NCBI GenBank assembly: GCA_003096235.1
Contig: PIXT01000239.1
Coordinates: 1 to 27,753 of the forward strand
Source of the DNA: Candidatus Bathyarchaeum sp.
Lineage (GTDB): Archaea > Thermoproteota > Bathyarchaeia > Bathyarchaeales > Bathyarchaeaceae
Direction of reading: 5' to 3'
Length of the DNA: 27,753 nucleotides
Below, piece after piece: positions 3,785-16,669 of this stretch (its first letter is position 1; each line of letters begins with the position of its first letter). The notes under the pieces were generated by a model. It was given only the letters and a program-made list of their open reading frames with translations, was not told the DNA's origin and did not search any database. Position numbers and translations under genes: made by a program.

Positions 3785-4258
3785 TCAGCTCGTTAATGCT
3801 TTTTTTATCGGGTCTTCAGGTTTGTCTTTGATTGTGCTATGAACAATGAATGTTTCTGTGTCTTTGACGCCATTTAAGTCATGAATCTTTTTGACTAGGT
3901 CAGTTAGTTCTTTATTGTTGTTCACTAGCACTTTCGCGATGCTGTCATATTTGCCAAAGATTCTTTGAAACTCAGATACCTGTGGGAGATTTTTGACAAT
4001 TTCTTCGGTTTCTTTTCTGCAGTCGCTGCGGGGGTCTTCACGCATCAATATGTATGCTTGAATGGATAGTCCTAAGATTTCGGGTTGCATTTTGGGAAAA
4101 AAAGAGATTATTAAGCCTGATTTGTGCATCTGTTCAATTTTTTTTGCGACTGTTTGTCTTGTGACGCCTATGTCTTGTGCTATTTTGAGGATTGGTTGTT
4201 GTCCTTTTTCTAGCAGGTTGAGTAGAATCTTTTTTTCTAAATCTTTGACAATTAACAT
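3785..4258 (-). CDS. Lrp/AsnC-family transcriptional regulator
   Basis: At 157 aa the protein has the usual Lrp/AsnC size and layout. A winged helix-turn-helix occupies about residues 4-60 (ILKIAQDIGVTRQTVAKKIE) and a RAM-type ligand/oligomerisation domain about 65-150. Lrp-like proteins bind DNA as dimers or octamers and often respond to amino acids. The first residues MLIVKDLEKKIL match the normal N-terminus. The gene is transcribed away from pckG, with an 83-base gap that contains a 9-bp dyad, so control of pckG and of itself is likely. The effector cannot be told from sequence. Confidence 0.85.
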   Translation of the reverse strand: MLIVKDLEKKILLNLLEKGQQPILKIAQDIGVTRQTVAKKIEQMHKSGLIISFFPKMQPEILGLSIQAYILMREDPRSDCRKETEEIVKNLPQVSEFQRIFGKYDSIAKVLVNNNKELTDLVKKIHDLNGVKDTETFIVHSTIKDKPEDPIKKALTS

Positions 4259-4278
4259 TTTGTTAACGTAACCTTTAA

Positions 4279-4312
4279 ATTAGTTAGCAGTTTTTAAACT
4301 TTTCTAACTAAT
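4279..4312. promoter_or_regulatory. Divergent promoter with 9-bp inverted repeat between lrp-like gene and pckG
   Basis: ATTAGTTAG (4279-4287) and CTAACTAAT (4304-4312) form a perfect 9-bp inverted repeat with a 16-base spacer. The spacer holds a second palindrome, AGTTTTTAAACT (4289-4300), which can serve as TATA element in both directions. The distances fit a start near 4320 for pckG and near 4268 for the regulator. Arms one to two helical turns apart suit a dimeric Lrp-type protein, which would then cover both TATA boxes. Confidence 0.6.
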
Positions 4313-4341
4313 AATCAACATAGAGTAAATGAGGCTAAATA

Positions 4342-6219
4342 ATGAATCCATACATTGAAGCATTACGACCCAAACTAAGCCAAGAGGACTACAAAAAACT
4401 GTGTGCAATATCCATTCCTAAAGTTCACGAGTTCATCGCCAAATCTGCTGACCTTTGCAACGCCGAACACGTGTTCATCTGCAGCGACTCCGCAGAGGAC
4501 AAAAACCACATCCGGCAGCAAGCAATCGCCAGCAAAGAAGAGGCAAAATTGAAAATATCTGGGCACACTGTGCATTTTGATGGTTATCATGATCAGGGAC
4601 GGGACCGTAAAGCTACAAAATATCTTGTTCCAAAAAGAGTTTTTCTCAGCAAGGCTCTTAATCAAATTGACCGGCAAGAGGGCTTGGCGGAAGTAAAAGG
4701 GTTACTTAGAGATTCCATGACAGGTCGTACAATGATTGCACGTTTTCTTTCTTTGGGACCTATAAATTCGCCGTTTACAATTCTTGGGTTGCAGTGTACA
4801 GACTCGTGGTATGTAGCTCATTCTGAAGATTTGCTGTATCGGTCAGGGTATAAGGTTTTTACTGAGTCAGGTTCGGATACGCAGTTTTTGCGTGTTTTGC
4901 ATTCTGCAGGTAAACTGACCGAACGTATGGTCAGTGCGGATGATGACAAGAAGTGCATTTACATTGACCACATGGATAACACGATTTACAGCGTTAATAC
5001 TCAGTATGCGGGTAACTCTATTGGCTTTAAGAAACTTGCGTTCCGTTTGGCTATTCGGAAGGCTAACACTGAGGGTTGGCTTGCTGAGCACATGATGTTG
5101 ATGGGTGTGCATGGTCCAGCTGGTCGTAAGACATATTTTGCGGGTGCATTCCCGAGTGCTTGTGGTAAGACGTCTACTGCTATGTTGCCTGGTGAAACTA
5201 TTCTAGGCGATGATATTGCGTATATTCGTGAGATTGATTGTGTTGCAAGGGCAGTGAATGTTGAAGCTGGTATTTTCGGCATCATAAAGGATGTGAATCC
5301 GGTTGATGATGTCTCTATCTTTAAGGTGCTTCATACTTCCGGCGAGATAATCTTTTCTAATGTGCTGGTTAAGGACAACAAGCCGTACTGGTTGGGTATG
5401 GGCAGTGAGCTTCCTAAAGACGGCGTGAACTTTTCTGGCGAGTGGCATGAAGGCAAGAAGGATAAAAACGGCAATGAAATTACGTTAGCCCACAAGAATG
5501 CAAGGTACGCTGTGACTTTAAAGGCACTTGCAAATTGTGACCCTGAGCTGGAAAATCCGTTGGGAGTTGAGCTTAGTGGAATAATGTATGGCGGCAGGGA
5601 CACTAAAGCGTATGTTCCTGTTCAGCAGAGCTTTGATTGGGAGCATGGAATTATTTCGTATGGGGCATCTTTGGAGACAGAAACAACCTTTGCGACAATA
5701 GGTAAGGAAGGTGTGCCTGAAATTAATATGATGAGTATTCAGGACTTTATTTCTATTCCACTTGGGAAGAATGTTCGGAATAATCTGGAGTTTGGCAAGA
5801 AGATCAAAAATCCGCCTGTAGTGTTTGGAGTTAACTACTTCCTGAAGGATAAAACGGGAAATTACCTCAATGACCCTAAGGACAAGCATGTTTGGGTGAA
5901 GTGGATGGAGCTGCGGGTTCACGGTGAAGTGGATGCGATAAAGACTCCGACTGGGTATATTCCAAAGTATGAAGATTTACGTAAAATCTTCAAGCATGTG
6001 CGGGACAAAGATTACACTAAAGAAGAGTACAATCAGCAGTTTACTATCAGGGTTGACGAGAACATGGCGAAGATTAAGCGTGTGCGCCAGTTCTACAAGG
6101 AAAAGGTCACCTACACGCCCGAGGCAGTGTTTTGGGTGCTAAACCAGCAGTACGAGCGTTTGCTTAATGCCAAAGAACAGTTTGGCGATTATATTGCGCC
6201 TGACAAGTTTGGAAAGTAA
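4342..6219 (+). CDS. pckG: Phosphoenolpyruvate carboxykinase (GTP)
   Basis: The enzyme interconverts oxaloacetate + GTP and phosphoenolpyruvate + CO2 + GDP, the entry to gluconeogenesis, or in reverse an anaplerotic CO2 fixation; it is cytosolic and needs Mn2+. At 625 aa it has the normal length for the GTP-dependent class. The nucleotide P-loop with the reactive cysteine is visible as AFPSACGKTS (residues 269-278, Cys274 and Lys276), followed by the metal-binding region ETILGDDIAYIRE. The start ATG has TGAGG eight bases upstream. The gene lies divergently from an Lrp-like regulator and is followed by a T-rich hairpin, so it is probably monocistronic. The length and the PSACGKT loop distinguish it from the ATP-dependent PckA. 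Confidence 0.95.
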   Translation: MNPYIEALRPKLSQEDYKKLCAISIPKVHEFIAKSADLCNAEHVFICSDSAEDKNHIRQQAIASKEEAKLKISGHTVHFDGYHDQGRDRKATKYLVPKRVFLSKALNQIDRQEGLAEVKGLLRDSMTGRTMIARFLSLGPINSPFTILGLQCTDSWYVAHSEDLLYRSGYKVFTESGSDTQFLRVLHSAGKLTERMVSADDDKKCIYIDHMDNTIYSVNTQYAGNSIGFKKLAFRLAIRKANTEGWLAEHMMLMGVHGPAGRKTYFAGAFPSACGKTSTAMLPGETILGDDIAYIREIDCVARAVNVEAGIFGIIKDVNPVDDVSIFKVLHTSGEIIFSNVLVKDNKPYWLGMGSELPKDGVNFSGEWHEGKKDKNGNEITLAHKNARYAVTLKALANCDPELENPLGVELSGIMYGGRDTKAYVPVQQSFDWEHGIISYGASLETETTFATIGKEGVPEINMMSIQDFISIPLGKNVRNNLEFGKKIKNPPVVFGVNYFLKDKTGNYLNDPKDKHVWVKWMELRVHGEVDAIKTPTGYIPKYEDLRKIFKHVRDKDYTKEEYNQQFTIRVDENMAKIKRVRQFYKEKVTYTPEAVFWVLNQQYERLLNAKEQFGDYIAPDKFGK

Positions 6220-6224
6220 CCGGT

Positions 6225-6248
6225 AAAGGGACTCTTTTTTCCCTTTTT
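6225..6248 (+). terminator. Hairpin and T-run after pckG
   Basis: AAAGGGA (6225-6231) pairs with TCCCTTT (6240-6246) across an 8-base T-rich loop and is followed by more T. T-rich tracts are the usual archaeal termination signal. Confidence 0.55.
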
Positions 6249-6329
6249 ATTCCACATTATTTTTATTGAACGGAAAATCTATAGGCTAGTCCATAATAGA
6301 AATTAGACAAATCCGGGTTTGGACATTGT

Positions 6330-6406
6330 GCCTCGGTGGCTCAGCCCGGTAGAGCGGCAGCCTTGTAAGCTGTTGGTCGCGGGATCAAATCCCGCCCGAG
6401 GCTCCA
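6330..6406 (+). tRNA. tRNA-Thr (anticodon UGU)
   Basis: The cloverleaf is complete, with the same acceptor, D-arm and anticodon stem as the tRNA at 2812. The anticodon TGT is at 6364-6366, with discriminator T and encoded CCA (6403-6406). Three bases differ from the other copy: the wobble base, one base in the variable region, and position 54 of the T-loop, which is A (6384, loop ATCAAAT) instead of the nearly universal T. It decodes ACA and probably other Thr codons. The two genes are recent paralogues. Confidence 0.93.
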
Positions 6407-6514
6407 TAACACAATTTTTCGAGACATAAATCATGTTGCAAAAACGTTACTATTTTACTGTTGAGACCTAGTTTTTCTAGCAAAATATTGGACGAACAAA
6501 ATTGTTGTGCTGAG

Positions 6515-6664
6515 TTACTCGCGTTTTGCCCACAGTTCTTTTTTCAGCATGTCTCTTACTGCTGCTCTGATTGCTGCGCTTCTGCTGGGGTACATTCCTG
6601 ACCTTACTAGTTCGTCTAGTCCTGTCAGGTAAGCCTCTGGAAGTAGAACCGTTACAAGCTTCAT
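6515..6664 (-). CDS. 49-aa ribbon-helix-helix (CopG/Arc-type) DNA-binding protein
   Basis: The sequence reads MKLVTVLLPEAYLTGLDELV and continues with SGMYPSRSAAIRAAVRDMLK. This is the RHH pattern: one beta strand, helix, a turn with PSRSAAIR, then a second helix. Such proteins bind DNA as dimers through the paired strands (here K2, V4, V6 region). With only 49 residues it is the bare RHH unit with no ligand domain. The ATG at 6664 has GGTGA nine bases upstream, and a TATA-like CTATATCC on the opposite strand near 6707-6717 would give a short leader. Its target is unknown; the adjacent intergenic region is a natural candidate for autoregulation. Confidence 0.8.
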   Translation of the reverse strand: MKLVTVLLPEAYLTGLDELVRSGMYPSRSAAIRAAVRDMLKKELWAKRE

Positions 6665-7064
6665 TCACGTTTCACCTTGGCACCTGCATGTTATCTACCG
6701 ATTATGCAGCTATATCCTTAATAGAGTTTACCTTGGATGCTGGAGACATCTCCACTTGTTTTCTTGCAAATCTTCCCTTTTTTATGTTTAAGCCTTAAAC
6801 AAAAACGGTTCTCTATTGCTAGTCCCCCAAAAGAAAACACGGTCGGTGAACCTGAAATGAAGATTGCTGTTTTCACTCCTAATGGCACGATGTCTCGCAC
6901 GAAATCCCCCTTTTTTCTAGCATGTGCGCTTTTGGTATTTCAACTATTCATTACAACCGTGTTAAGCGTAACAATTAGTTGCAGAAAAACATTTTCAGAA
7001 TCGTATAATGTATTAGTAGTAAATCTTTTAAATAATTGGACTTATTGGTTAAGTCTAAAACTTT
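6665..7064. other. 400-base intergenic region without a convincing gene
   Basis: It probably holds the promoter of the RHH gene on the minus strand and, at 7025-7036, a TATA element (CTTTTAAATAAT) for the 57-aa gene that starts at 7065. Reading frames on both strands here lack clear ribosome binding sites and recognisable domains. Confidence 0.4.
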
Positions 7065-7238
7065 ATGGACGATGTCTTAATGGCTAAGAAAGCAAAAATT
7101 TTTCTTTCTCTTGTGAAAGAAAGCAACGAAATGTCGAACGACGAGATTGCGACAGAAATTTTTGAGGAGCTTCTAAAATTCCCGCAGGTACTTCCATGGG
7201 TTGAAAAGGTTCTTATTGTGAACGTAACTGATGACTAA
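7065..7238 (+). CDS. 57-aa acidic helical protein, function unknown
   Basis: The frame begins MDDVLMAKKAKIFLSLVKES and ends EKVLIVNVTDD. It looks like a small helical protein with charged and hydrophobic residues alternating in a credible pattern. The TATA element CTTTTAAATAAT at 7025-7036 predicts a start near 7060, so ATG 7065 would be almost leaderless; an in-frame ATG at 7080 is the alternative. A stable hairpin with a T-run follows at 7268, consistent with a single-gene transcript. I do not recognise the family. Confidence 0.55.
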   Translation: MDDVLMAKKAKIFLSLVKESNEMSNDEIATEIFEELLKFPQVLPWVEKVLIVNVTDD

Positions 7239-7267
7239 AAGATTCGATCGCCAGTTTTTATGTTAAG

Positions 7268-7286
7268 AAGTAAATTGTTTACTTTT
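7268..7286 (+). terminator. Hairpin plus T-run after the 57-aa gene
   Basis: AAGTAAA and TTTACTT form a perfect 7-bp stem with a TTG loop, ending in four T residues, about 30 bases after the stop codon of the 57-aa gene. Confidence 0.5.
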
Positions 7287-7368
7287 AGTACTATTACTGT
7301 TTCTTTTTTAATTGTTTGACAAGTTTTTCAGCAAACTTAATTTGGTAATTGTTCTTTTGACATAATTC

Positions 7369-8313
7369 ATGTGTTCCATTGACAATTTGCAGGATCCGCG
7401 AAAAAGAGCGGTACTAAAAGTCAGAGCCAAAGTGTTTAATTTAGCTAGGTGCTGGTTCAACGATCAAGGTTTTACGGAAATTCAAGGACCAACAATAATA
7501 CCTGCAACTGGAGAATGGTCTGGTTCCTTTGAGGTCAAATATTTCGATAAAAAAGCTTACCTTACTCAAGGACTTCAACCTTACGCGGATGCTTTTGTTG
7601 CCCTTTTAGGAAAAATCTATACTCTTGCTCCAGTCTTCAGGGCAGAAAAAGTGAGGACAAAACGTCATTTAATGGAATATTGGCGAATCGAAGCAGCTGT
7701 TCCACAATGTGATTTGAATGGCATAATTAGGATTCAGGAGGATTTGGTAGCTTATATTTGTCACAGTTTAGCTACAGATGCTATAGAAGAGCTAAAGTGC
7801 TTGCACCGTCAGGTTGAGGATTTAGAAAAGGTTCAAGCCCCTTTCCCCAGAGTAACATATGATGAGGCAATCGAAATGTTGCAAGATGACAATAATTACG
7901 TCTTTTGGGGGCAACAACTAAGCGTGGAATTGGAAAAAAAGATTAGCCTTCGATTTAATCAACCGTTTTTTGTCACTGATTTTCCAGTCAGTAATGAAAC
8001 GTTCTTTTACAAGTCAAATACACAGAGGCCAGAGCTAACTTTGTCTGCAGATTTGCTTGCGCCAGAAGGTTATGGAGAGATAGCGGGGGGAGGGCAGATG
8101 ATAGTGGAAAAAGAGGTTTTGCTTAAAAAGATGGCTGAAGAGAAGATAGGCGCTGCAGACCAAAGATGGTATCTGAGTCTTAGGCAGTTGGGTTCAGTTC
8201 CTCATTCAGGGTTTATGATGGGTCTTGAAAGGTTTATTCAGTGGCTCTGCAAACTAGAGCACATTAAAGAAGCTTCAGCTTTTCCAAGATTATCAGATAA
8301 CCTTTATCCCTGA
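7369..8313 (+). CDS. AsnRS-like catalytic domain protein; probable archaeal asparagine synthetase (AS-AR type)
   Basis: At 314 aa the protein is a class II aminoacyl-tRNA synthetase catalytic core of the Asp/Asn group without the N-terminal OB-fold that binds the anticodon. Motif 1 is near residues 34-45 (GFTEIQGPTIIP), motif 2 has FRAEKVRTKRH at 90-100, and motif 3 is GLERFIQWL with Arg288. The known archaeal AS-AR family has this architecture and makes asparagine from aspartate, ATP and an ammonia donor through an aspartyl-adenylate. The GGxxR region near residue 230 reads AGGGQMIVE, so the Arg usual in AsnRS is absent. The start is leaderless, about 25 bases after AACTTAATT. The gene converges with the MFS gene with a 10-base overlap. 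A role in amidating another substrate cannot be excluded. Confidence 0.75.
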   Translation: MCSIDNLQDPRKRAVLKVRAKVFNLARCWFNDQGFTEIQGPTIIPATGEWSGSFEVKYFDKKAYLTQGLQPYADAFVALLGKIYTLAPVFRAEKVRTKRHLMEYWRIEAAVPQCDLNGIIRIQEDLVAYICHSLATDAIEELKCLHRQVEDLEKVQAPFPRVTYDEAIEMLQDDNNYVFWGQQLSVELEKKISLRFNQPFFVTDFPVSNETFFYKSNTQRPELTLSADLLAPEGYGEIAGGGQMIVEKEVLLKKMAEEKIGAADQRWYLSLRQLGSVPHSGFMMGLERFIQWLCKLEHIKEASAFPRLSDNLYP

Positions 8314-9524
8314 CTGTGCAATTTCTTGTTAACTTTCTTGACAACATTCATGTGTAGTTTCAATCTTATTTTGTCGCGAAAATCTTCAGATAACAGTTCT
8401 GGAGCCAAAAATAATGGAATATTCGAAATGAAAATCAATGAGCAGCCAATAAGTGCACTCCAAACTACTGAAATCTGGGATATTTGCGGTGAAATGAGTA
8501 ATCCTAAAGCTAGCGGAAAATAGAAAATTATTAACCCCCTAGAATATCTTTTGACACAGTTTTGTTCGTCTGCCAGATCACCCCAAACTACAGAACCATA
8601 TAACGACCAGAGAATTCCCCAATTCAATCCGCTTACTGCCGATACCAAATAAGTTACTTCAGTATTCTGAACAAAACCGCCGAGAGCTGTGCTGATTCCA
8701 TATAGTGTAAGACTGAAACTTAGAGATATTTTTCTCCCAAAAAAATCGGAGATTATTCCGCCTCCCAGCGCACCGAAACCAGCTGCAATCGTTTGTAAAA
8801 GCAAAATTGAAAAATAAATAGATTCTGGGCTGCTCTGAATAACATTAAGTGAAATGTTTCTGTCAAATGTACTGTTGACTACCGAAAATATTATCCATGG
8901 AATAGCATATAGCAGGGCTGTTCTCTTTTCATAGTATCCCCCTTCTTTTTCTTTATTATTTTTTGAGATGGGGCTCTCTTCTGGTTTTAAGAACTTGGTT
9001 GCTAATATTCCTAAAATGAAAAAAGCAGCCAATATTACAGTTCCAAACAAATCAAGAAATTGTGCCAATAGATTTACGATGTAAGCGAGCGGTATTGCAA
9101 TTAAACCAATAAAACCTGCTATTCGTCCCCTTTCTTCGGATATTGTTATGCTCCAAAAATGCGTAAACGAAAGTAATTGACCTATAGCAAAGAATATACT
9201 TGCTATGAAAACGAGCAACAGGCCAACAGGTCCGTTTGGAAATAATAGAAGAATAATGAGCGTTGCCAACAGGGCTATGGAGCACCTGTAGATGCTCCTG
9301 ACTTTGTTGATTTTCTTAATGAAAAACATGCATAACAGCAACGTAATCGCGATGATGAGATGAAACGTTCCGTAACTTAGAAACGATTCATCTGCTGAAC
9401 CAACAAATTGCTGGATAAGTGATGTAGATAAAATATAATATAACGAAAGAAAAGCACATTGTAGAACCATATTGATGAACAAAGCAGTCTTATTTAGTCT
9501 GATTCCACTCGTTACTATGTTCAA
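8304..9524 (-). CDS. Major facilitator superfamily transporter, 12 TM
   Basis: This 406-residue protein has about twelve hydrophobic helices in two halves separated by a charged loop (about residues 185-200, rich in K and E). The motif-A-like loop of the second half, GGGIISDFFGRK, is clear. The start is TTG at 9524, because a TAA stands in frame three codons upstream; a methionine at residue 19 is an alternative. MFS proteins exchange small solutes or drugs with H+ or Na+. The substrate is unknown, but the gene shares its promoter region with the 73-aa peptide gene, and its 3' end overlaps the AsnRS-like gene by 10 bases. Export of a small product of this cluster is a reasonable guess. Confidence 0.82.
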   Translation of the reverse strand: MNIVTSGIRLNKTALFINMVLQCAFLSLYYILSTSLIQQFVGSADESFLSYGTFHLIIAITLLLCMFFIKKINKVRSIYRCSIALLATLIILLLFPNGPVGLLLVFIASIFFAIGQLLSFTHFWSITISEERGRIAGFIGLIAIPLAYIVNLLAQFLDLFGTVILAAFFILGILATKFLKPEESPISKNNKEKEGGYYEKRTALLYAIPWIIFSVVNSTFDRNISLNVIQSSPESIYFSILLLQTIAAGFGALGGGIISDFFGRKISLSFSLTLYGISTALGGFVQNTEVTYLVSAVSGLNWGILWSLYGSVVWGDLADEQNCVKRYSRGLIIFYFPLALGLLISPQISQISVVWSALIGCSLIFISNIPLFLAPELLSEDFRDKIRLKLHMNVVKKVNKKLHSQG

Positions 9525-9626
9525 GTTGCATTACCACTTAGTTTTTGTTCAGAAGTTAGATTAATGTTCGAGTTAAATAATAAGTTTTAAGAGCATAATC
9601 AAGTTATTTATTAACTGGCGATATGA
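9525..9626. promoter_or_regulatory. Divergent promoter between MFS and 73-aa peptide genes
   Basis: The 102-base gap has TATA-like stretches for both directions: GTTAAATAATAA (9572-9583, for the MFS gene on its reverse) and GTTTTAAGAG (about 9583-9592, for the peptide). A short dyad AGTTA/TAACT with a 5-base spacer spans 9602-9616, just before the peptide start, and could be an operator. Confidence 0.45.
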
Positions 9627-9848
9627 ATGAAAAATCTTCAAGAAAGAATAGCGGATGTGTCGTCTCATCTACAATCATTACTGAGCCCCAATGTCTTCCC
9701 CAAGGTTCAAGAAGCCGTTGAGAAAAAGGACAAAACAATGCTGATAGAAGCGTGTAGAACTGCAAAAATTCCAGACAGTTACATGAGTTCTGTTGTACCC
9801 GTGATTCTCTCAGTCAGTCCAAAACTGAAATGGCCCCCAACCATATGA
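9627..9848 (+). CDS. 73-aa peptide with Trp near the C-terminus, next to a prenyl-synthase-like gene
   Basis: The first half (residues 1-47) is predicted helical and charged. The second half, from IPDSYMSSVVPVILSVSP to the end, is hydrophobic and finishes KLKWPPTI with Trp69 four residues from the C-terminus. No signal peptide or membrane segment is obvious. The gene is convergent with the isoprenyl-synthase-like gene, their stops only 3 bases apart, and divergent from the MFS transporter. In Bacillus, ComX is a short peptide prenylated on a Trp near its C-terminus by ComQ, an isoprenyl-synthase homologue encoded beside it; the similarity of layout is suggestive only. It could instead be a small structural or regulatory protein. 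The start ATG has only a weak ribosome binding site. Confidence 0.6.
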   Translation: MKNLQERIADVSSHLQSLLSPNVFPKVQEAVEKKDKTMLIEACRTAKIPDSYMSSVVPVILSVSPKLKWPPTI

Positions 9849-9851
9849 TTG

Positions 9852-10871
9852 CTATACTTGCAACACAGATAGGCTTTCGATAAAAAGTTGGGCTTGTGCC
9901 TCAACAAAGAAGTTCAATGTCTTCGTAGAATCATTTACCTCTAATCCTGAGAGGCACCCCTTCGCTTTTTTTGTAGACGTTCTGATATGTTTCATAATAT
10001 TTTTTAGTGGTTCCGTTGCCAAAACATGTTCTACAACTTCTTTTATATCGGATGGCTGTATTGACTCTGTGGTTGCTAATTTTTCGAGTTTCTTCTGAAG
10101 GTTTTCAGACTGTTCCCTTGCCCACAGCAACGAATAGGGCAATCTATTATCTCTTATTTTTTCGGCTAGTTCGAACGTCAAATTGATGGATACCATGTAG
10201 TCTTTCCACAATTCCAAAATTACGCCGAAGTTTAGTCCATATTTGCCGAGTTGGTTGACTTCTTCATCAGATCCGTCACCTAAAGTTGCTCCGAGTTTTA
10301 GGCATGTTTCTAGGTCGGTAGCCTCCGTTTTAATCACCCACAGTTTATTGGATGAAGCAGTCTGTCTACGTGAACTAAGATTGACTTTTTCAGCTGTGCC
10401 CATCTTCGCCCAAAGACTCCAGATTAGCTTAGTGACCGCTTGACGTTTCTTTATATCTATATCTAGTTCATTAAGAATTGAAAATGCTTTGGCGGAAGCA
10501 AGTCCACCAATTATCAGAGCTGGGCCTTCACCAAATTTTCCAAAAAGCGTAGGCTTGAATGACTTGTAGACCGTGTTATCTACTATATCGTCCCAGACAA
10601 AAAAACTCAGATTCATCAAGCTTAACGATAACGCTACCTCATGAGTAGCTTCTGGTTGTCCTCCTACGGCTTCACATGAAAGCTTCATTAAAGCTGGGGT
10701 GAGTGGGTCACGCCAATTTTTTGATATAAACTCGAGAGGAGATTGTAGGTCCTTTAACAGTGGATCTTCAAGTAGTATTCTGCTAGATTGATCGGCAATG
10801 TGTCCTCCATTTTCATCCAGAATTCTTTGGCATCGCTTTTTTAGGCTAGATTCGATGTACATTAGTCTCAT
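9852..10871 (-). CDS. Degenerate trans-isoprenyl diphosphate synthase-like protein (ComQ-like)
   Basis: The 339 residues are mostly helical and align by eye with the isoprenyl synthase fold. LMKLSCEAVGG (61-71) matches the usual LxLLxCEAxGG. The first Asp-rich motif is intact as DDIVD (94-98). KTEA at 181-184 corresponds to the KTAxL site. However, the N-terminal basic IPP-binding GGKRxRP is replaced by KNWRDPLTP, the arginines after the first motif are missing, and the second motif is ELWKD (220-224) rather than DDxxD. Loss of IPP-site residues with the first motif kept suggests a prenyl transferase to another acceptor, as in ComQ, rather than chain elongation for lipids. The ATG at 10871 is the first usable start, although the frame stays open about 25 codons upstream. 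Confidence 0.72.
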   Translation of the reverse strand: MRLMYIESSLKKRCQRILDENGGHIADQSSRILLEDPLLKDLQSPLEFISKNWRDPLTPALMKLSCEAVGGQPEATHEVALSLSLMNLSFFVWDDIVDNTVYKSFKPTLFGKFGEGPALIIGGLASAKAFSILNELDIDIKKRQAVTKLIWSLWAKMGTAEKVNLSSRRQTASSNKLWVIKTEATDLETCLKLGATLGDGSDEEVNQLGKYGLNFGVILELWKDYMVSINLTFELAEKIRDNRLPYSLLWAREQSENLQKKLEKLATTESIQPSDIKEVVEHVLATEPLKNIMKHIRTSTKKAKGCLSGLEVNDSTKTLNFFVEAQAQLFIESLSVLQV

Positions 10872-10957
10872 CAGTTTGTTGTTCCATTCTACGTTAAAAT
10901 CTTTGTCAAAGTTGCGTTCTGCTCCTGAAAAGTCTTATATCTTACATGTTATACTTC

Positions 10958-10981
10958 GTATTATTGAAGATACAATAATAC
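10958..10981. promoter_or_regulatory. 9-bp dyad in the divergent promoter of the prenyl-synthase-like and wHTH-ParA-PadR genes
   Basis: GTATTATTG (10958-10966) and CAATAATAC (10973-10981) are a perfect inverted repeat with a 6-base spacer. ACTTCG flanks it as a direct repeat (10953-10958 and 10982-10987). The dyad overlaps the likely TATA region for the plus-strand operon, whose GTG is at 10997, and lies just upstream of the likely minus-strand TATA (AGATATAAG, near 10932-10942). A dimeric wHTH protein such as the PadR or MarR-like product encoded downstream could repress both directions from here. Confidence 0.6.
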
Positions 10982-10996
10982 ACTTCGTGGTTAACA

Positions 10997-11428
10997 GTGA
11001 CGAATGGAACAGAAAATAGCAAGACATTAGAAGAATTGGATACTAAACATCTATTGGTAACATTAATTGGCGAAGTCCATAAGTTGAACCAAAAATTTGA
11101 TTCCGTAGTTAAGTTCAGTGGGAAGATGTTAAAGGCTCAAGAAGAGTTACTCCAAAGAACTCCTAAACACAGTCATACTGGTAATCAATTCAAACTTGTA
11201 CCTGACATGATGACCTTAATTTCTATACCCTCTGCATTGAGAAAGACAGTTGTTGCGTTATACAAACTGCAAGAGGCAACAGCTGACGACTTGTCCAGAG
11301 AAACAAAGAGGCTGAGAGCTGTAGAAAGTGCGGCTGCAAACCAGCTATTACGAATGGGTTTTGTCAGCAAAAAGCGTGAAGGAAGAAAAGTCTATTTTAC
11401 ATTAAATGACTCGGAGACTTCACAATGA
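10997..11428 (+). CDS. Coiled-coil plus MarR-like winged-helix protein
   Basis: This is a 143-aa protein. Residues about 10-55 are a charged helix that may be a coiled coil (LEELDTKHLLVTLIGEVHKL). Residues about 75-138 look like a winged helix: LRKTVVALYKLQEATADDLS, then a helix with SAAANQLLRMGF, then a basic wing (SKKREGRKVYFTL). The start GTG is near the predicted transcription start, so the message is probably leaderless. The stop overlaps the ATG of the ParA-like gene (ATGA), implying translational coupling. It probably binds DNA and may link DNA to the ParA-like ATPase, as centromere-binding partners do. Confidence 0.65.
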   Translation: MTNGTENSKTLEELDTKHLLVTLIGEVHKLNQKFDSVVKFSGKMLKAQEELLQRTPKHSHTGNQFKLVPDMMTLISIPSALRKTVVALYKLQEATADDLSRETKRLRAVESAAANQLLRMGFVSKKREGRKVYFTLNDSETSQ

Positions 11429-12216
11429 AAGGAAAAGTAGTGGCTATTCACTCGTCACGTGGTGGCACAGGTAAAACCACTATAGCCACAAATTTGGCGA
11501 TCGCTTATTCACGAAAAGGTTTGAATGTTGCACTTTTGGACCTTGATTTTCGTGCTCCAAGCCTATTCAGCATTTTTTCAAAATGGATACAAATGCCCGT
11601 AAAACATTGGCTGAATGATTTTATGCTTAACAAATGCACGCTGGAGCAAAGTTTGATTGATGCTTCAGAATGGTTTGGTTCAAGTGGAAAACTGTTTTTA
11701 GGCTTAGCAAATCCTGCGCTTGAAGCAATCCGAAGCATTACTGGAAGAAGTAGAGCATGGGAAGTAAGTGCAGCTAAGAAACTTTTCGCTATGCGAACTA
11801 CACTCTTTGATGATATGCACATTGACTGTTGCATCTTGGACACTAGTCCTGGTATCCAATATTCATCAATTAATGGTGTAGTTAGCTCTGATGTTGCTAT
11901 TATTGTAGCAACTTTAAACCCTGTGGACATAAAGGGCGTTAAAAACATGCTTACAGAGTTTTATGATGAATTCGAAAAAAAAGCAGTTATATTGATTAAC
12001 AAAGCCTATCCTCAGACGCGGATTTGGTCAGAAAGTAAACGCAATGAATTAGCTGATCAGATGGAGAACGTCTTTGGACATGCCGTAATCTGTATAATTC
12101 CATGCTATTGTGATGTGCTTGATGCTAACACTGGGTCGTTCTTGGTGGAGACGCATCCATACCACTCCTTCTTTAAAGACTTACAGGAGGTTACAAAGAA
12201 ACTTGAAAAAATGTGA
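11425..12216 (+). CDS. ParA/MinD-family ATPase with Arg in the deviant Walker A
   Basis: This 263-residue P-loop ATPase has SRGGTGKTT (residues 11-19) as its Walker A, LLDLDFRAPS for the switch I/A' region, and CILDTSPGIQ for Walker B/switch II. ParA and MinD proteins normally carry a signature lysine in KGGxGKT that reaches across the dimer to the partner's ATP; here that position is Arg12. A MinD-type C-terminal amphipathic helix is not obvious, although the end (LQEVTKKLEKM) is charged and helical. It is the second gene of a three-gene operon with a wHTH partner and a PadR regulator. Chromosome or plasmid segregation, or positioning of another complex, are the likely roles. Confidence 0.82.
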   Translation: MKGKVVAIHSSRGGTGKTTIATNLAIAYSRKGLNVALLDLDFRAPSLFSIFSKWIQMPVKHWLNDFMLNKCTLEQSLIDASEWFGSSGKLFLGLANPALEAIRSITGRSRAWEVSAAKKLFAMRTTLFDDMHIDCCILDTSPGIQYSSINGVVSSDVAIIVATLNPVDIKGVKNMLTEFYDEFEKKAVILINKAYPQTRIWSESKRNELADQMENVFGHAVICIIPCYCDVLDANTGSFLVETHPYHSFFKDLQEVTKKLEKM

Positions 12217-12571
12217 TCTGAAAGAGACTCATGAGGCGCCTAAATTGGAGACAAAAATCTTGAGAGAAATACATGAGAGAATTGTTAAGAGCCTATTGGA
12301 TGTCATTATTCTGGTAGAGTTACGCGAAAGAACTACCTTTCTGGGGGGCTATGATGTACTGAATCTGGTTCAGCAGGAATATGGTGTTTTGATAAGTTCG
12401 GGCACGATTTATTCTGTTCTATATTCGATGGAACGAAAAGGCTTAATCGAGGGAAACGTCGCTCGAAGTAAGAGAGAATATGTGTTAACAAAAAAGGGCG
12501 AGAATAAGATCAAAGAAATCTTTGAATTGAAAGCAAACATCTTAGAATTGATGACAAAAATCATCAACTAA
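12203..12571 (+). CDS. PadR-family transcriptional regulator
   Basis: The start is TTG 12203, because AGGAGGT lies at 12185-12191, 11 bases upstream; this gives 122 aa and a 14-base overlap with the ParA-like gene. The PadR winged helix is clear: VKSLLDVIILVELRE, GGYDVLNLVQQEYGV, SSGTIYSVLYSMERKGLIEG, then a wing with YVLTKKGENKIKEI. A helical C-terminus for dimerisation follows. PadR proteins are mostly repressors of export or stress genes. The perfect dyad upstream of its own operon (10958-10981) is the obvious candidate site. Longer frames starting upstream inside the ATPase gene lack PadR character. Confidence 0.85.
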   Translation: MKKCDLKETHEAPKLETKILREIHERIVKSLLDVIILVELRERTTFLGGYDVLNLVQQEYGVLISSGTIYSVLYSMERKGLIEGNVARSKREYVLTKKGENKIKEIFELKANILELMTKIIN

Positions 12572-12602
12572 AAACTAAACAAAAGAAGAACTGCAGCTTG
12601 CA

Positions 12603-12857
12603 ATGAACACCGCACAAAAAGAAAGCACTATTTTTCTAAGTTTCTGTACGAAACTGGTTCAAGAGCAAATTAACCACAAAAACGTGAATGAGCAGACCTA
12701 GACAGCGAAAGATGCAAAGTTACAGTCAAATCGTCAAGTTCACGGCACCCCGCGATTTACAATAATTCAGTATGTTGACCTTTATCGACAAGTATACCGT
12801 GACAGCAGACATGAACAGTTCATAACAAAGATTGCGTCAATAAGGATTAACGTATAG
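12603..12857 (+). pseudogene. 84-codon frame interrupted by one TAG; decayed gene or readthrough ORF
   Basis: From ATG 12603 the frame runs 32 codons to TAG (12699-12701), then 51 more codons in the same frame to TAG at 12855-12857. The second part contains FTIIQYVDLYRQVYRDSRHE, which looks protein-like. I do not recognise a family. Simple decay is the default reading. Suppression of TAG by pyrrolysine is possible only if the organism has the Pyl system, which this window cannot show. The rest of 12572-13204 has no other firm gene. Confidence 0.3.
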
Positions 12858-13006
12858 AATTAATGAATGATTGTTGGGCTTGGTTGAAAAAGACTGTAGT
12901 GACTGGTATTTTAGGAAACCAAAGTTTGGTATTGAAACGTTGAGATAATCGTGAAATCGTTGAATTAATAGAGTTCACCTAGTAACTTTCGGATTACTAC
13001 ATGATT

Positions 13007-13150
13007 TTATGTTATCGTTTCCGTTTTCTGAATAATAGTAAATCTTGATGAGCGCAAACGTATTTGATTCCTGTCTTGATTTGTTCCTTTGCTTTTTGGT
13101 GTTGTGGCGACGGCAGAATGGTGTTTGCCTTTTTTCAAAACCTGCAACAT
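13007..13150 (-). CDS. Possible 47-aa basic protein
   Basis: The frame starts MLQVLKKGKHHSAVATTPKS and ends IIQKTETIT. Its ATG at 13150 lies about 20 bases from an A/T-rich TATA-like stretch shared with the gene at 13205, which would fit leaderless expression. The composition (K, R, S, T rich) is also compatible with non-coding sequence. No homologue comes to mind. Confidence 0.22.
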   Translation of the reverse strand: MLQVLKKGKHHSAVATTPKSKGTNQDRNQIRLRSSRFTIIQKTETIT

Positions 13151-13160
13151 GTGATGACCA

Positions 13161-13196
13161 AAATTTTTTTAAAATAATCAGGTAGTAACTTACCTG
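13161..13196. promoter_or_regulatory. TATA region and 6-bp dyad before the membrane protein gene
   Basis: AAATTTTTTTAAAATAAT (13161-13178) is a likely TATA element, usable in both directions. CAGGTA (13179-13184) and TACCTG (13191-13196) form an inverted repeat with a 6-base spacer between the TATA element and the GTG at 13205, a position where a bound repressor would block transcription initiation. Confidence 0.45.
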
Positions 13197-13204
13197 TAGG
13201 TTTT

Positions 13205-13747
13205 GTGGTTAAATCAGGGGGTGGATTTATCCCAATTACAGCTAAACAGGCTCAGTTGTTAAAGGAGTACATCATTAATGCTGAGTTTTGGAAACACCAT
13301 GACGCGATGCGCCAAAAGAAAATGGAAAATTTCTTAACAGTAAACTCTATTTTCGCAGCTGCAATTGCTCTTTTAACAAGCAGTATTTTTTCGAACATGC
13401 AGACCGTATCAATTATTCTAATCATTGGCATTTCAATCATAGGATTCTTTGTATCTGTAACATGGAATTCTGTTATGCGCAGAAATAGTGAGTACATGCG
13501 TTTTCAACGCTTACAACTTTGTTCTATTGAAAAAGTCCTTCCTGACGGTTTTATGACATTTACTAAAATGTACAAGGCATTTGACAAACCTGAAGCCGTT
13601 GATTTTTCCTGCACCAAAAAACCATTCATAACCAAAACAGAAAGCGCCAATAAACTAGAAGGCGCCCTCCCAATTATAATAGCAGTTAGTTGGTTTGTTA
13701 TTGCAACTGGTTGTGCTGCGTTTTTATTCCACATGTTTACTTTTTAG
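13205..13747 (+). CDS. Three-TM membrane protein, RipA/SLATT-like pattern, function unknown
   Basis: The 180-residue protein starts at GTG 13205 (leaderless; the TATA region is about 30 bases upstream). An amphipathic N-terminal helix (EYIINAEFWKHHDAMRQKKM) leads into two close membrane helices (about 43-62 and 67-87). A cytoplasmic helix with YMRFQRLQLCSIEKVLPDGF follows, and a third membrane helix sits at about 155-177. This pattern (Arg-rich N-terminal helix, paired TM segments, conserved helix after) resembles small membrane proteins of the RipA or SLATT type, which in bacteria can be effectors in stress or defence loci. The likeness is by eye. The gene appears to stand alone. Confidence 0.55.
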   Translation: MVKSGGGFIPITAKQAQLLKEYIINAEFWKHHDAMRQKKMENFLTVNSIFAAAIALLTSSIFSNMQTVSIILIIGISIIGFFVSVTWNSVMRRNSEYMRFQRLQLCSIEKVLPDGFMTFTKMYKAFDKPEAVDFSCTKKPFITKTESANKLEGALPIIIAVSWFVIATGCAAFLFHMFTF

Positions 13748-13830
13748 CTAACATCTATTGATTTGTGGGACTTTAGTTCTTTATTTGGAACCGTTTAACT
13801 CCCACAAACACCGCTAACGTCAAATTTTCT

Positions 13831-14664
13831 TCATTGTTTTCCATCTTTTATGCTTCTGATAATAGTTGGCGTGCTGATGTCTATTCCGTGCTTGTTGCAT
13901 GACTCCAGAACTGTTCTTTTGATGTTCGCGTCTATCTCTGGCAACAGTTTAATCTTGTCGATGAAAACATAAAGCGTGTACTCTACAGCATAATTTCCAA
14001 ACTGTGTAATCCAAACATAGGCTTTTGGTGTCTTCAAAATGTCTTCCAACTCAGCCAACTTCTTTGCAGCCTCTAACAACACAGCCTCAACCTGCTCAGA
14101 AGCAACATCAAAACCCGCAGTAACTGAACACTTTCTGCGAACAACATTCTTCTTTCCAAAATTATCTATCTCAGCCTTCAACAACTCTTGATTAGGAATC
14201 GAAACCAAAACATTGTCCAAAGTACGCATCTTAGTGTAAATCAACTCAATGGCTTCAACATCCGCAAATTGTCCATTAAAAAATATCCTGTCTCCAACCC
14301 TGAATGGACGGCTTGTCATAACTATCAAACCTGCAATTGTATTCCCAAGTGTGTTAATTGAAGCAAAACCTATGATGGTTCCCCCGATAACCGTTAAAAG
14401 CCCGGAAAGCTCACCTAGTGATATTCCAAACTGAGCCAAAATGATCGAAAAAACTGCCACAAAAATAAGCCACTTCAACACCCTATTCAACGTATACGCA
14501 GCATGCTGCTCCAACCTGTTCTGGCTTCTCAACGATTTTATCTCTCGGGCAACAAGCTTGATGACAATGTAACCCACAATAATTGCTATGACAGAAAACA
14601 TGATGTTAGACAGATTCGCTAAAGTCCAGTCGCCTATAGAATCAATAAAATCTAACGAGTTCAC
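13831..14664 (-). CDS. Small-conductance mechanosensitive channel, MscS family (first copy)
   Basis: This 277-residue protein has three membrane helices. The pore helix region GGTIIGFASINTLGNTIAGL is rich in Gly and Ala, as in MscS TM3, and the beta domain has the usual PFRVGDRI. The cytoplasmic alpha/beta domain ends at ISTPTIIRSI. MscS channels form heptamers that open under membrane tension and release solutes on osmotic downshift. The start is GTG 14664, with AAGGGGA about 12 bases upstream. It is divergent from a CaCA-type exchanger gene, and a second MscS lies beyond it. Confidence 0.9.
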   Translation of the reverse strand: MNSLDFIDSIGDWTLANLSNIMFSVIAIIVGYIVIKLVAREIKSLRSQNRLEQHAAYTLNRVLKWLIFVAVFSIILAQFGISLGELSGLLTVIGGTIIGFASINTLGNTIAGLIVMTSRPFRVGDRIFFNGQFADVEAIELIYTKMRTLDNVLVSIPNQELLKAEIDNFGKKNVVRRKCSVTAGFDVASEQVEAVLLEAAKKLAELEDILKTPKAYVWITQFGNYAVEYTLYVFIDKIKLLPEIDANIKRTVLESCNKHGIDISTPTIIRSIKDGKQ

Positions 14665-14745
14665 TTCAAAAATTCCCCTTCACCTTTTAATTACCATAAA
14701 ATCTTTAAAAGCTTCACCATTCAATCTACACTATCAAAAACCACT

Positions 14746-15720
14746 ATGGAGGAACCTCAACTGATACTCTACAGCATACCAATATTAGCTGCATCACTGC
14801 TGCTGATCATGCTCATCAGCGACCGACTCATCAGATACGTACTAATTATATCCAAAGCCCTCGGACTATCCGAAATGGCTGCAGGCTTTATCATTTTGTC
14901 AATCACAACCTCACTGCCAGAACTTTCAGTATCCATAGTCGCAGCCCTAGGAGGAGAAGGCGGACTTTCCGTCGGTAACGTCCTAGGCTCTAACGTCGCA
15001 AACCTCACCATAATCCTCGGACTATCAATACTGCTCGCCAGAAAAACCATAACCCTGAAAGGACAATCCAACAAAGAACTTGTACAATTCCTGTTCATCT
15101 CATCAATAATACCCCTGTTCATTGTCCAGCGAGGCAACCTGGACCTCATCTTAGGCATTGTACTTCTAACATTGTTCATTTACTTCGGCGTAACAGTCTC
15201 CCGCAAAACCGAAGGAACAGCCGTCATCGAAGAAACGCCCCAGCAACCACAAAAGGAGAAAATGGCTTTTGTAGTCATCAAATTTTTGGTGGGCGTTGGA
15301 TCAATAATACTTCTTTCCAATTTTGCGGTGGACAGTTCTGTTGATATTGCCAACTTCATAGGATTGCCCACATCAATAATCGGTGCAACCATAATCGGTT
15401 TTGGAACCTCCCTGCCCGAGCTAGCAACAACCATGCAAGCCCTAAAACAGGGACTAGTCAGCATGGCTCTTGGAAACCTGCTCGGAAGTTGCATCACTAA
15501 CATTACTCTTATTCTTGGTGTTTCATCACTGCTTTCTACATCTGCGGTGAATGTTGTAGCTGTGCAGAGCATCATGTTCTATGTGCTGATTTCATCATTA
15601 AGCGTCTGGTACATGGTGGGTGCCGCTGAGCGGCTTACCAAAAAGTCTGCAATTTTTCTATGCACAATATATATCGTATTTATTCTACAACAGGTAGGAG
15701 TTTCAGTGATTGTTTTCTAA
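14746..15720 (+). CDS. CaCA-family cation exchanger (Na+/Ca2+ antiporter-like)
   Basis: This 324-residue, about ten-TM protein carries the two alpha-repeats that define the family. In the first half these are TTSLPELSVSIVAALGG and GNVLGSNVANLTIILG. In the second half they are GTSLPELATTMQALKQG and GNLLGSCITNITLILG. The acidic residue in each SLPEL motif binds the cation. The prokaryotic YrbG-like members exchange Ca2+ for Na+ or H+ across the membrane. The second repeat has a Cys (GSC) where Asn is usual (GSN). The ATG is almost leaderless: CTTTAAAAG lies about 40 bases upstream. It sits between two mechanosensitive channel genes, pointing to ion balance. Confidence 0.9.
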   Translation: MEEPQLILYSIPILAASLLLIMLISDRLIRYVLIISKALGLSEMAAGFIILSITTSLPELSVSIVAALGGEGGLSVGNVLGSNVANLTIILGLSILLARKTITLKGQSNKELVQFLFISSIIPLFIVQRGNLDLILGIVLLTLFIYFGVTVSRKTEGTAVIEETPQQPQKEKMAFVVIKFLVGVGSIILLSNFAVDSSVDIANFIGLPTSIIGATIIGFGTSLPELATTMQALKQGLVSMALGNLLGSCITNITLILGVSSLLSTSAVNVVAVQSIMFYVLISSLSVWYMVGAAERLTKKSAIFLCTIYIVFILQQVGVSVIVF

Positions 15721-15826
15721 ACAAGAAACGTGACTATAACGCTGATTAAAAAAAAATCAAATCGTAACGTTCCAGAAAACATAAAAAAGAAACAAGTCTT
15801 CTATGAATGTACGCCGAGGAACAATT

Positions 15827-16669
15827 ATGCTTGCCCCCCTTCAAGGACTAATTGAACAGCCCATCCTGCTTCTAAAAATAGTTCTAACCATAATTGGCGC
15901 CTTTCTGATAGTTACATTATTCAACAAGTTAATAGGACGCCTTGAAAAGAGTGGTGAATTGGAAAAAGGAAAACTAACTCACCTCAAAAGATTCTTCCAG
16001 ATAGTCATCTACCTCGTAGCCTGCATCGTAATTCTCTCATTTCTAGACCAAGACATCACCGCAGCTATTGCAGGTCTTGGAGTAGGCGCCTTAGTGATCG
16101 GTTTTGGCTTGAGTGAACTAATAGAGAACTGGGTCTCTGGAGTTTTGATAATCTCTGGCAAAACTTTCGCCATCGGCGACGTAATCCGAGTTGGAGCTTT
16201 AACTGGAACAGTCACGGACATATCTCTTAGAACAACCAAACTGAAGACCTACGACCGAAACGAGATAATAATTCCAAACTCTGTGCTAATAAAAGAAAAA
16301 ATAATCAATCTAACTGGTGGAGCATCTGAAGCAGTTGCGACACTGACCTTTGCTGTAGACTATACCGTAAACGCTGAAAAAGCCAAATCGGTCATAGAAA
16401 AAATCCTGAAAAACCATAAATCGGTAATTGTTAACAATAAACGAAGACGAGAAATACGGTTCATTTTCCGCAACAAAGAGTGGACAAACGAAATTGAAGC
16501 ACTGTTTTGGGTAAATGATCCTCCTAACGAAGAATTCATTAAATCAGACATTTCGGAGTTAATTCAGAAAGAATTCAAGAATCAGTGTATACTGCCTCCG
16601 ATTCCTTCCTTGATGCGAAGGGATTACCTAACTGGACAAAAAACATCCGACGATCAACAAGTAGAATAA
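15827..16669 (+). CDS. Small-conductance mechanosensitive channel, MscS family (second copy)
   Basis: The protein is 280 aa from ATG 15827, chosen because GAGGA lies seven bases upstream; an in-frame ATG at 15803 would add eight residues. Three TM helices are followed by AAIAGLGVGALVIGFGLSEL, the Gly/Ala-rich pore helix, and by SGKTFAIGDVIRVGALTGTV in the beta domain. EIIIPNS at about 145-151 is the typical loop. The C-terminal domain is shorter and more basic than in the copy at 13831, and identity between the two appears low, so they are old paralogues rather than a fresh duplication. Confidence 0.9.
   Translation: MLAPLQGLIEQPILLLKIVLTIIGAFLIVTLFNKLIGRLEKSGELEKGKLTHLKRFFQIVIYLVACIVILSFLDQDITAAIAGLGVGALVIGFGLSELIENWVSGVLIISGKTFAIGDVIRVGALTGTVTDISLRTTKLKTYDRNEIIIPNSVLIKEKIINLTGGASEAVATLTFAVDYTVNAEKAKSVIEKILKNHKSVIVNNKRRREIRFIFRNKEWTNEIEALFWVNDPPNEEFIKSDISELIQKEFKNQCILPPIPSLMRRDYLTGQKTSDDQQVE

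Follow-up and report, generated by a model that had tools for sequence, protein, structure and literature searches.

A candidate peptide-prenylation pair in Bathyarchaeia, formed by a diverged polyprenyl-synthase homologue and a small protein with a C-terminal K-[WY]-P motif

Known prenyltransferase systems and the archaeal pair

The closest described systems are bacterial enzyme-precursor pairs. In ComQ/ComX of Bacillus, an enzyme of the polyprenyl-synthase fold that keeps its first aspartate-rich motif (FARM) and the second Asp alone of the second such motif (SARM) is encoded beside a small precursor with a Trp near its C-terminus and a variable tail. The ComQ and ComX genes are normally co-directional, and the comQXP genes are polymorphic. 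In PalQ/PalX of Paenibacillus alvei, an isoprenoid-synthase-superfamily enzyme is encoded next to a leader-type precursor whose last residue is Trp, and a further close system, Ord1, is a free-Trp farnesyltransferase (PDB 9v4g-9v4j). As far as the accessible parts of these papers go, ComQ requires a SARM of the form NDxxx or GDxxx, DDxxD being unsuitable for Trp prenylation (PMC5331326); a Gln before the SARM recognises Trp in PalQ and Ord1, the characterised trans-IDS-like enzymes are Trp-specific, and only bacterial trans-IDS-like peptide prenyltransferases are named in that 2026 review (PMC13290415); ComX and the comQXPA system are variable, and the 2014 census detected comQXPA loci in Firmicutes and in no other phylum (PMC4008528). 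A paper on archaeal RiPPs (PMC12144867) leaves prenyl, ComQ, Bathyarch, lipopeptide and Trp all unmentioned, and our search of the open-licence literature found no report of an archaeal Trp-prenylated peptide.

The window, by which we mean the whole stretch of DNA analysed, is contig PIXT01000239.1 (27,753 nt) of Candidatus Bathyarchaeum sp. (assembly GCA_003096235.1). A sequence-only reading of it had proposed a possible archaeal ComQ/ComX-like pair, and the underlying gene models were borne out. The precursor-like peptide is encoded at 9627-9848 on the plus strand, has 73 residues, ends in KLKWPPTI and carries Trp69 at position -5, with four residues beyond it. The enzyme, a 339-residue trans-isoprenyl-diphosphate-synthase-like protein matching PF00348 (E 1.5e-12) and a candidate peptide prenyltransferase, is encoded at 9852-10871 on the minus strand, so that the two genes meet tail-to-tail with 3 bases between the stop codons. 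The motif description given in that reading also held: set against canonical GGPP synthases of related genomes, the FARM is intact (DDIVD, residues 94-98; 10578-10592, minus strand), the IPP-binding residues are gone (NWRDPLTP, with no G-K-x-R), and the second DDxxD is replaced by the pseudo-SARM KDYMV (residues 223-227; 10191-10205, minus strand), where the second Asp alone is kept, in the context ELWKDYMV instead of FQxxDDxxD.

Among the 120 enzyme relatives listed (of 414 found), the FARM aspartates are nearly invariant (D94 120/120, D95 119/120, D98 120/120), the SARM begins with Lys in 117 cases, with Asn in 2 and with Arg in 1, and the second SARM Asp (D224) is kept in 109. Position 220, just before the SARM, is Glu in 113 and Asp in 7 of the same 120, unlike PalQ, ChrPC and Ord1, which have Gln there together with the first SARM Asp; the aligned pair-type enzymes likewise have no Gln at this place. 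The retention of the second Asp alone is shared with ComQ, and the NDFRV motif of loci L002 and L003 is the ComQ SARM form itself, whereas the other enzymes paired with KWP peptides mostly have KDxxx rather than N/GDxxx. Within this KWP clade the second Asp is kept and the first residue mostly replaced, with Q in L020, E in L016 and D in L019, which thus retains DD. In one pair-type enzyme (L016/L026, G220:C115) NNMMD replaces the first DDxxD, and a KWPILE peptide lies beside it. The second motif of the other pair-type clade, partnered with peptides of the GG-W type, is DDxxD- or DExxD-like and in this respect differs from ComQ.

The window enzyme shares the ancestral fold and the FARM with archaeal GGPP/FPP synthases (PF00348) but lacks the IPP-binding motif GKxxR as well as RRG and FQxxDDxxD. 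Canonical GGPP synthases of related genomes carry GGKRLRP, DDxxD, RRG and FQxxDD; our canonical set comprised L120 and L122-L128 (n=8), all with GGKR, a first DDxxD and an FQ/YQxxDD-like second motif, while L121 and L130-L135 have no GGKR and therefore fall outside it. In the phylogenetic tree, all non-canonical enzymes are separate from the canonical synthases (support 100/100), and the pair-type enzymes fall into two supported clades: one holds nine KWP-type rows (100/100) and the other three GG-W-type rows (100/99). Separate canonical GGPP synthases are present in related genomes, for G220 within the same genome (L123). The enzyme nearest to that of the window in the tree (L001) comes from a bin labelled Candidatus Sifarchaeum, reflecting either gene transfer or misbinning. 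A weak match to the enzyme (23.5% identity) occurs in a single plasmid record.

The peptide is predicted (AlphaFold2, pLDDT 86.9) to consist of a helical N-terminal part (residues 4-62) and a flexible tail (last blocks 67 and 59). We found 39 relatives directly and 535 by profile search, and none in the viral contigs scanned. The window peptide belongs to no family in Pfam (E up to 10; HMMER filters apply) or NCBIfam, and its model gave no Foldseek match at E <= 0.001, so these searches established no link to ComX or to NHLP/Nif11 leaders. It resembles ComX as a small precursor of similar length with a Trp near the C-terminus, a variable tail and a gene adjoining that of the enzyme, but differs from ComX in having no match to PF05952 (Pfam, E up to 10) and from PalX in having no leader-family match. 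Further differences from ComQ/ComX are the archaeal host, the convergent genes, and Trp at -5 or Tyr instead. In contrast to comQXPA, the partners encoded nearby are MFS, AsnRS-like and MinD-like proteins, and no ComP or ComA was found among the 18 window proteins scanned. Because the ComX Pfam match, an adjacent ComP/ComA and the Gln before the SARM were not found, membership in the ComQ family is unsupported.

Linkage of the enzyme and peptide genes

The peptide model matches eight of 256 genomes of the class, and a close enzyme (E < 1e-96) occurs in seven, in all seven of which the close enzyme and peptide genes are adjacent and convergent. As both families are conserved (535 and 414 relatives) and the pairing is kept in 7/7, the pair reflects more than chance. 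The earlier reading had proposed a search for homologue pairs to test whether the Trp accompanies the enzyme. Every one of 13 pair-type enzyme loci, including one enzyme fragment at a contig edge, has a convergent ORF of 55-87 aa with Trp in its last six residues, the 3' ends of the two ORFs lying -35 to +76 bp apart. Such an ORF was found beside 1/62 other paralogues and 0/8 canonical GGPP synthases (Fisher p 1e-13, a value that ignores kinship). The one exception, L091 (...RWWNYIP), is unlike the peptide family and was judged spurious. The background frequency of Trp in the last six residues is 125/1473 small ORFs of the fetched loci, and counted by kind of ending, 5/5 at a background of 8.5% corresponds to about 4e-6. 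The linkage count omits L114, L111 and L009, with less than 350 bp of downstream DNA, and keeps L019 (207 bp); the pair-type group was delimited with model A3, which includes six of the group's 12 full-length members, so the score gap arises partly by construction. Furthermore, 30 metagenome contigs, matched by equal length, carry both proteins (24 with W, 6 with Y). A scan of 398 genomes drawn from the phylum yielded no additional pair-type enzyme with a comparable score.

The peptides of the pair-type loci have five kinds of ending, KWPxxx, GWFLK, ASVSW, GGWA and DTGW, and their partner enzymes belong to the two clades; KYPEWI, a KYP ending with Trp, was grouped under the KWPxxx kind. Convergent with distant enzymes are the G102:C1 peptide (...DDPGWFLK), the G003:C2 peptide (...GGASVSW) and the G003:C46 peptide (...VVGGWA), and the G002:C84 peptide (...DADTGW) lies beside the contig-edge enzyme fragment. 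Profile searches show homology to the other peptides for two of these four: the GWFLK peptide was found by the A1 peptide model at E 1.4e-6, and the DTGW peptide, at E 1.7e-5, was the best non-member of 1880 small ORFs for a ten-peptide model built without it. With the A1 model, the ASVSW and GGWA peptides reached E 3.9 and 0.47, respectively, which is close to chance. When L007, L010, L008 and L012 were examined together, peptides were present in 2/4. Trp is the final residue of the SVSW and TGW peptides, as it is of PalX.

We consider it fairly probable that the two genes encode an enzyme and its substrate, with the former synthase prenylating an aromatic residue of the peptide tail, the MFS protein handling the product and the tail giving specificity. 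The ancestor of the enzyme would have been a polyprenyl diphosphate synthase; an allylic prenyl diphosphate may be bound by the intact FARM, and elongation with IPP would have been lost. The prenyl group would pass to an aromatic residue in the exposed peptide tail (Trp69 here, Tyr in some relatives), with the helical N-terminal part acting as a leader or as a domain for recognition. Either the whole modified peptide or a fragment from its C-terminus may then be handled by the neighbouring MFS protein, and the fast-changing last three residues would confer specificity as in ComX pherotypes. We infer the prenyl transfer, as well as the acceptor atom, chain length, cleavage, export, signalling and role. 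For this archaeal candidate, peptide prenylation in the manner of ComQ/ComX or PalQ/PalX is likely, and its specificity is possibly pheromone-like.

A peptide family widespread without the enzyme had been named in advance as counting against such a pair, and this was encountered in mild form, in one genome of the 256 (G097), the pair being otherwise linked. The G097 locus (L028, G097:C21:190000-205000) keeps the AsnRS-like, MFS, peptide, HTH and MinD genes, its peptide ends in KKYPIFL with Tyr and no Trp in the tail, and neither the enzyme nor a recognisable remnant of it was found in the cluster. This locus favours an alternative that we regard as unlikely, namely that the peptide is a regulatory or scaffold partner of the enzyme or of the MFS or MinD protein, its K-[WY]-P tail docking unmodified while the MFS protein exports a small isoprenoid made or bound by the enzyme. 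It is also favoured by the paralogues without a peptide, which likewise are followed by a co-oriented MFS-like gene (52/62; seven of the ten without it had less than 600 bp of DNA to inspect), and by the conservation of Lys and Pro, which exceeds that of Trp. Against a docking partner, Trp recurs, among changed neighbours, in four other peptides that have no K-W-P, and the canonical IPP-binding motif of the enzyme is gone.

The C-terminal tail and MFS divergence

The motif K68-W69-P70 and the hypervariable residues P71, T72 and I73 (9828-9845, plus strand) were defined by comparison with the peptide family. Among 128 relative sequences from the matches listed (of 535), K-x-P occurs near the C-terminus in 127, as KWP in 112 and KYP in 15, and exactly three residues follow the Pro in 126. 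For the 124 of the 128 peptides long enough for position statistics, Lys at -6 and Pro at -4 are invariant (each 124/124), position -5 is Trp in 109 and Tyr in 15, and Trp occurs outside the last six residues in 0/124. A poorly conserved Trp had likewise been named as evidence against the pair; here too the effect is mild, since the 15/124 substitutions leave an aromatic residue. Among the KYP peptides listed, 14/15 have no Trp anywhere in the tail. At the active-site columns checked, W-type and Y-type enzymes showed no clear difference; the comparison used 30 W rows, of which 6 came from loci, against 6 Y rows, and omitted one Y contig of ambiguous length (2632).

Nowhere in the protein is variability higher than at the three C-terminal positions (2.68, 3.80 and 2.79 bits in the 124 peptides, against a mean of 0.72 bits over the first 53 positions). 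In 65 close, non-independent pairs, with an identity of 90% or more across residues 1-67, the last three residues differ at a mean of 1.92 positions, compared with 0.21 expected at the same rate. Protein C-termini are often loose. The length of this tail, however, is constant, and 94/124 peptides have Phe, Tyr, Trp or Leu at position -1; from these sequence patterns the hypervariable tail therefore looks diversified rather than merely unconstrained, which would be odd for a docking tail. A substrate with its dedicated prenyltransferase fits the observed pattern of conserved linkage, motifs, recurring C-terminal Trp, tail hypervariability and gene order better than a docking partner or chance.

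The MFS-type transporter gene (8304-9524, minus strand) is divergent from the peptide gene, with about 100 bp between them. Between L023 and L024, seven proteins are 84-93% identical with the exception of the MFS protein, at 59% and lowest in its N-terminal half. DNA identity drops from about 0.9 to 0.6-0.8 over the MFS gene, the flanks of the peptide gene and the 3' end of the enzyme gene, forming a low-identity island (L023 7121-8900 versus L024) in loci otherwise about 90% identical. Of three pairs compared, MFS identity is clearly lowest in this one (0.59 vs 0.84-0.93), tied lowest in another (0.66) and second lowest in the third. The island resembles comQXP polymorphism, an analogy drawn from one pair, the two others being less clear. 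A bolder version of the preferred reading, which we put forward only tentatively, is that Bathyarchaeia possess families of C-terminally prenylated peptides with pherotype-like diversity, in which the dedicated convergent enzyme modifies the aromatic residue, the AsnRS-like ligase also modifies the invariant Lys of KWP peptides, and the last three residues are read by a co-varying MFS exporter or receptor. If true, this would be the first archaeal signalling or recognition system of its kind.

In weighing the prenylation reading, we counted for it the 13/13 linkage, the five endings, the fixed K-[WY]-P+3 arrangement, the ComQ-like motifs, the separate GGPP synthases, the tail hypervariability and the 30 contigs. 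Counted against it were the Tyr variants, set beside the Trp specificity of the characterised enzymes, the enzyme-less G097, NNMMD in G220, the lack of Gln before the SARM, the Lys at the first SARM position, the score gap that arises partly by construction, the convergent genes, the GG-W SARM, the near-chance ASVSW and GGWA scores, and the finding of no peptidase and no histidine kinase among the 18 window proteins scanned. Of the ComQ/ComX-like pair originally suggested, the pairing was strongly supported by linkage, endings, pseudo-SARM and hypervariable tail; the enzymatic reaction and a pheromone role remain proposals, and none of the 18 window proteins scanned is a histidine kinase. An archaeal counterpart spanning several paralogous precursor types would, if real, extend peptide prenylation to Archaea and give a large uncultured archaeal group a testable candidate for a chemical signal. 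Enzyme and peptide are small and co-expressible, so the claim is directly testable.

Gene neighbourhood and accompanying genes

Next to the 3' end of the MFS gene lies a gene for an AsnRS-like class II catalytic core without the anticodon-binding domain (7369-8313, plus strand; 314 aa, corresponding to residues 126-434 of the 434-residue 1x54). Beyond the enzyme gene, also on the plus strand, follow genes for a winged-helix regulator-like protein (10997-11428; TrmB match below cut-off), a MinD/ParA-like ATPase (11425-12216) and a PadR-like regulator (12110-12571 as the ORF is listed, the true start probably lying further in). The order AsnRS-like (forward), MFS (reverse), peptide (forward), enzyme (reverse) and HTH, MinD-like and PadR-like (forward) is found in the window, L023, L024, L077 and L078. 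It is conserved in L001, where the contig end cuts the AsnRS-like gene; L025 has no PadR match in the cluster, and contig ends truncate both L026 and L027, with HTH and MinD on the enzyme's strand in L026. In the P-loop of the window ATPase, SRGGTGKT, an Arg occupies the place where the deviant Walker A signature expects Lys; the L029 relative has YKGGSGKT. Compared with PalQ/PalX loci, the archaeal neighbours are MFS, FAD-protein and MinD-like genes.

The AsnRS-like gene occurs in the eight KWP/KYP loci that reach that far (window, L001, L023, L024, L025, L028, L077 and L078) and was not found in four loci without K-W-P peptides (L029, L073/L074, L075 and L076). Together with the invariant Lys-6 and the missing anticodon domain, this suggests a further, rather improbable reading, in which the AsnRS-like protein modifies Lys68, much as EpmA is an aminoacyl-ligase acting on the protein EF-P, and the prenyl enzyme acts elsewhere or second. 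However, the contrasting loci are just four, archaeal AsnRS-like cores can be asparagine synthetases, and modification of Lys68 accounts for neither the recurrence of Trp nor the enzyme. A coincidental neighbourhood of a diverged isoprenoid enzyme (terpene-cyclase-like or a lipid enzyme) and an unrelated small protein is very improbable. In its favour, 61/62 other paralogues have no such peptide, the remaining one being doubtful, and some loci have FAD proteins nearby whose weak similarity to geranylgeranyl reductase hints at lipid chemistry. Against it, the linkage holds in 13/13 loci across two clades with convergent order conserved.

The FAD proteins in question occur in the GG-W loci L074, L075 and L076, and the L007 copy of the L075 protein matches Pfam GGR_cat below the cut-off. 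At least one MFS gene is present in each GG-W locus, and L029, L073 and L076 have MinD-like genes; in L076 four MFS-like genes surround one enzyme-peptide pair (5915-16490). The other paralogues (L030-L042 and further loci) form a large non-canonical polyprenyl-synthase family with no GGKR and a mostly DDxxD-like second motif, and their loci include radical-SAM-like genes in 14, MinD-like genes in 12 and FAD/GGR-like genes in 3. Beside the pair-type cluster of L029 lie a trypsin-like peptidase gene and a TIR-domain gene (4147-5271 and 8957-9607), possible processing or response genes. A TIR-like gene in L073, suggested by a profile-free match, was rejected as such; the gene, which follows the pair-type cluster (4612-5481), encodes a KaiC-like ATPase that has a TRASH domain. 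L025 carries a PAS histidine kinase and an exosortase-like gene (10945-12144 and 12863-14953) beside the G102:C2 cluster, and a receptor kinase is conceivable there. The window also contains two tRNA-Thr genes, at 2812-2888 and 6330-6406, with anticodons cgt and tgt.
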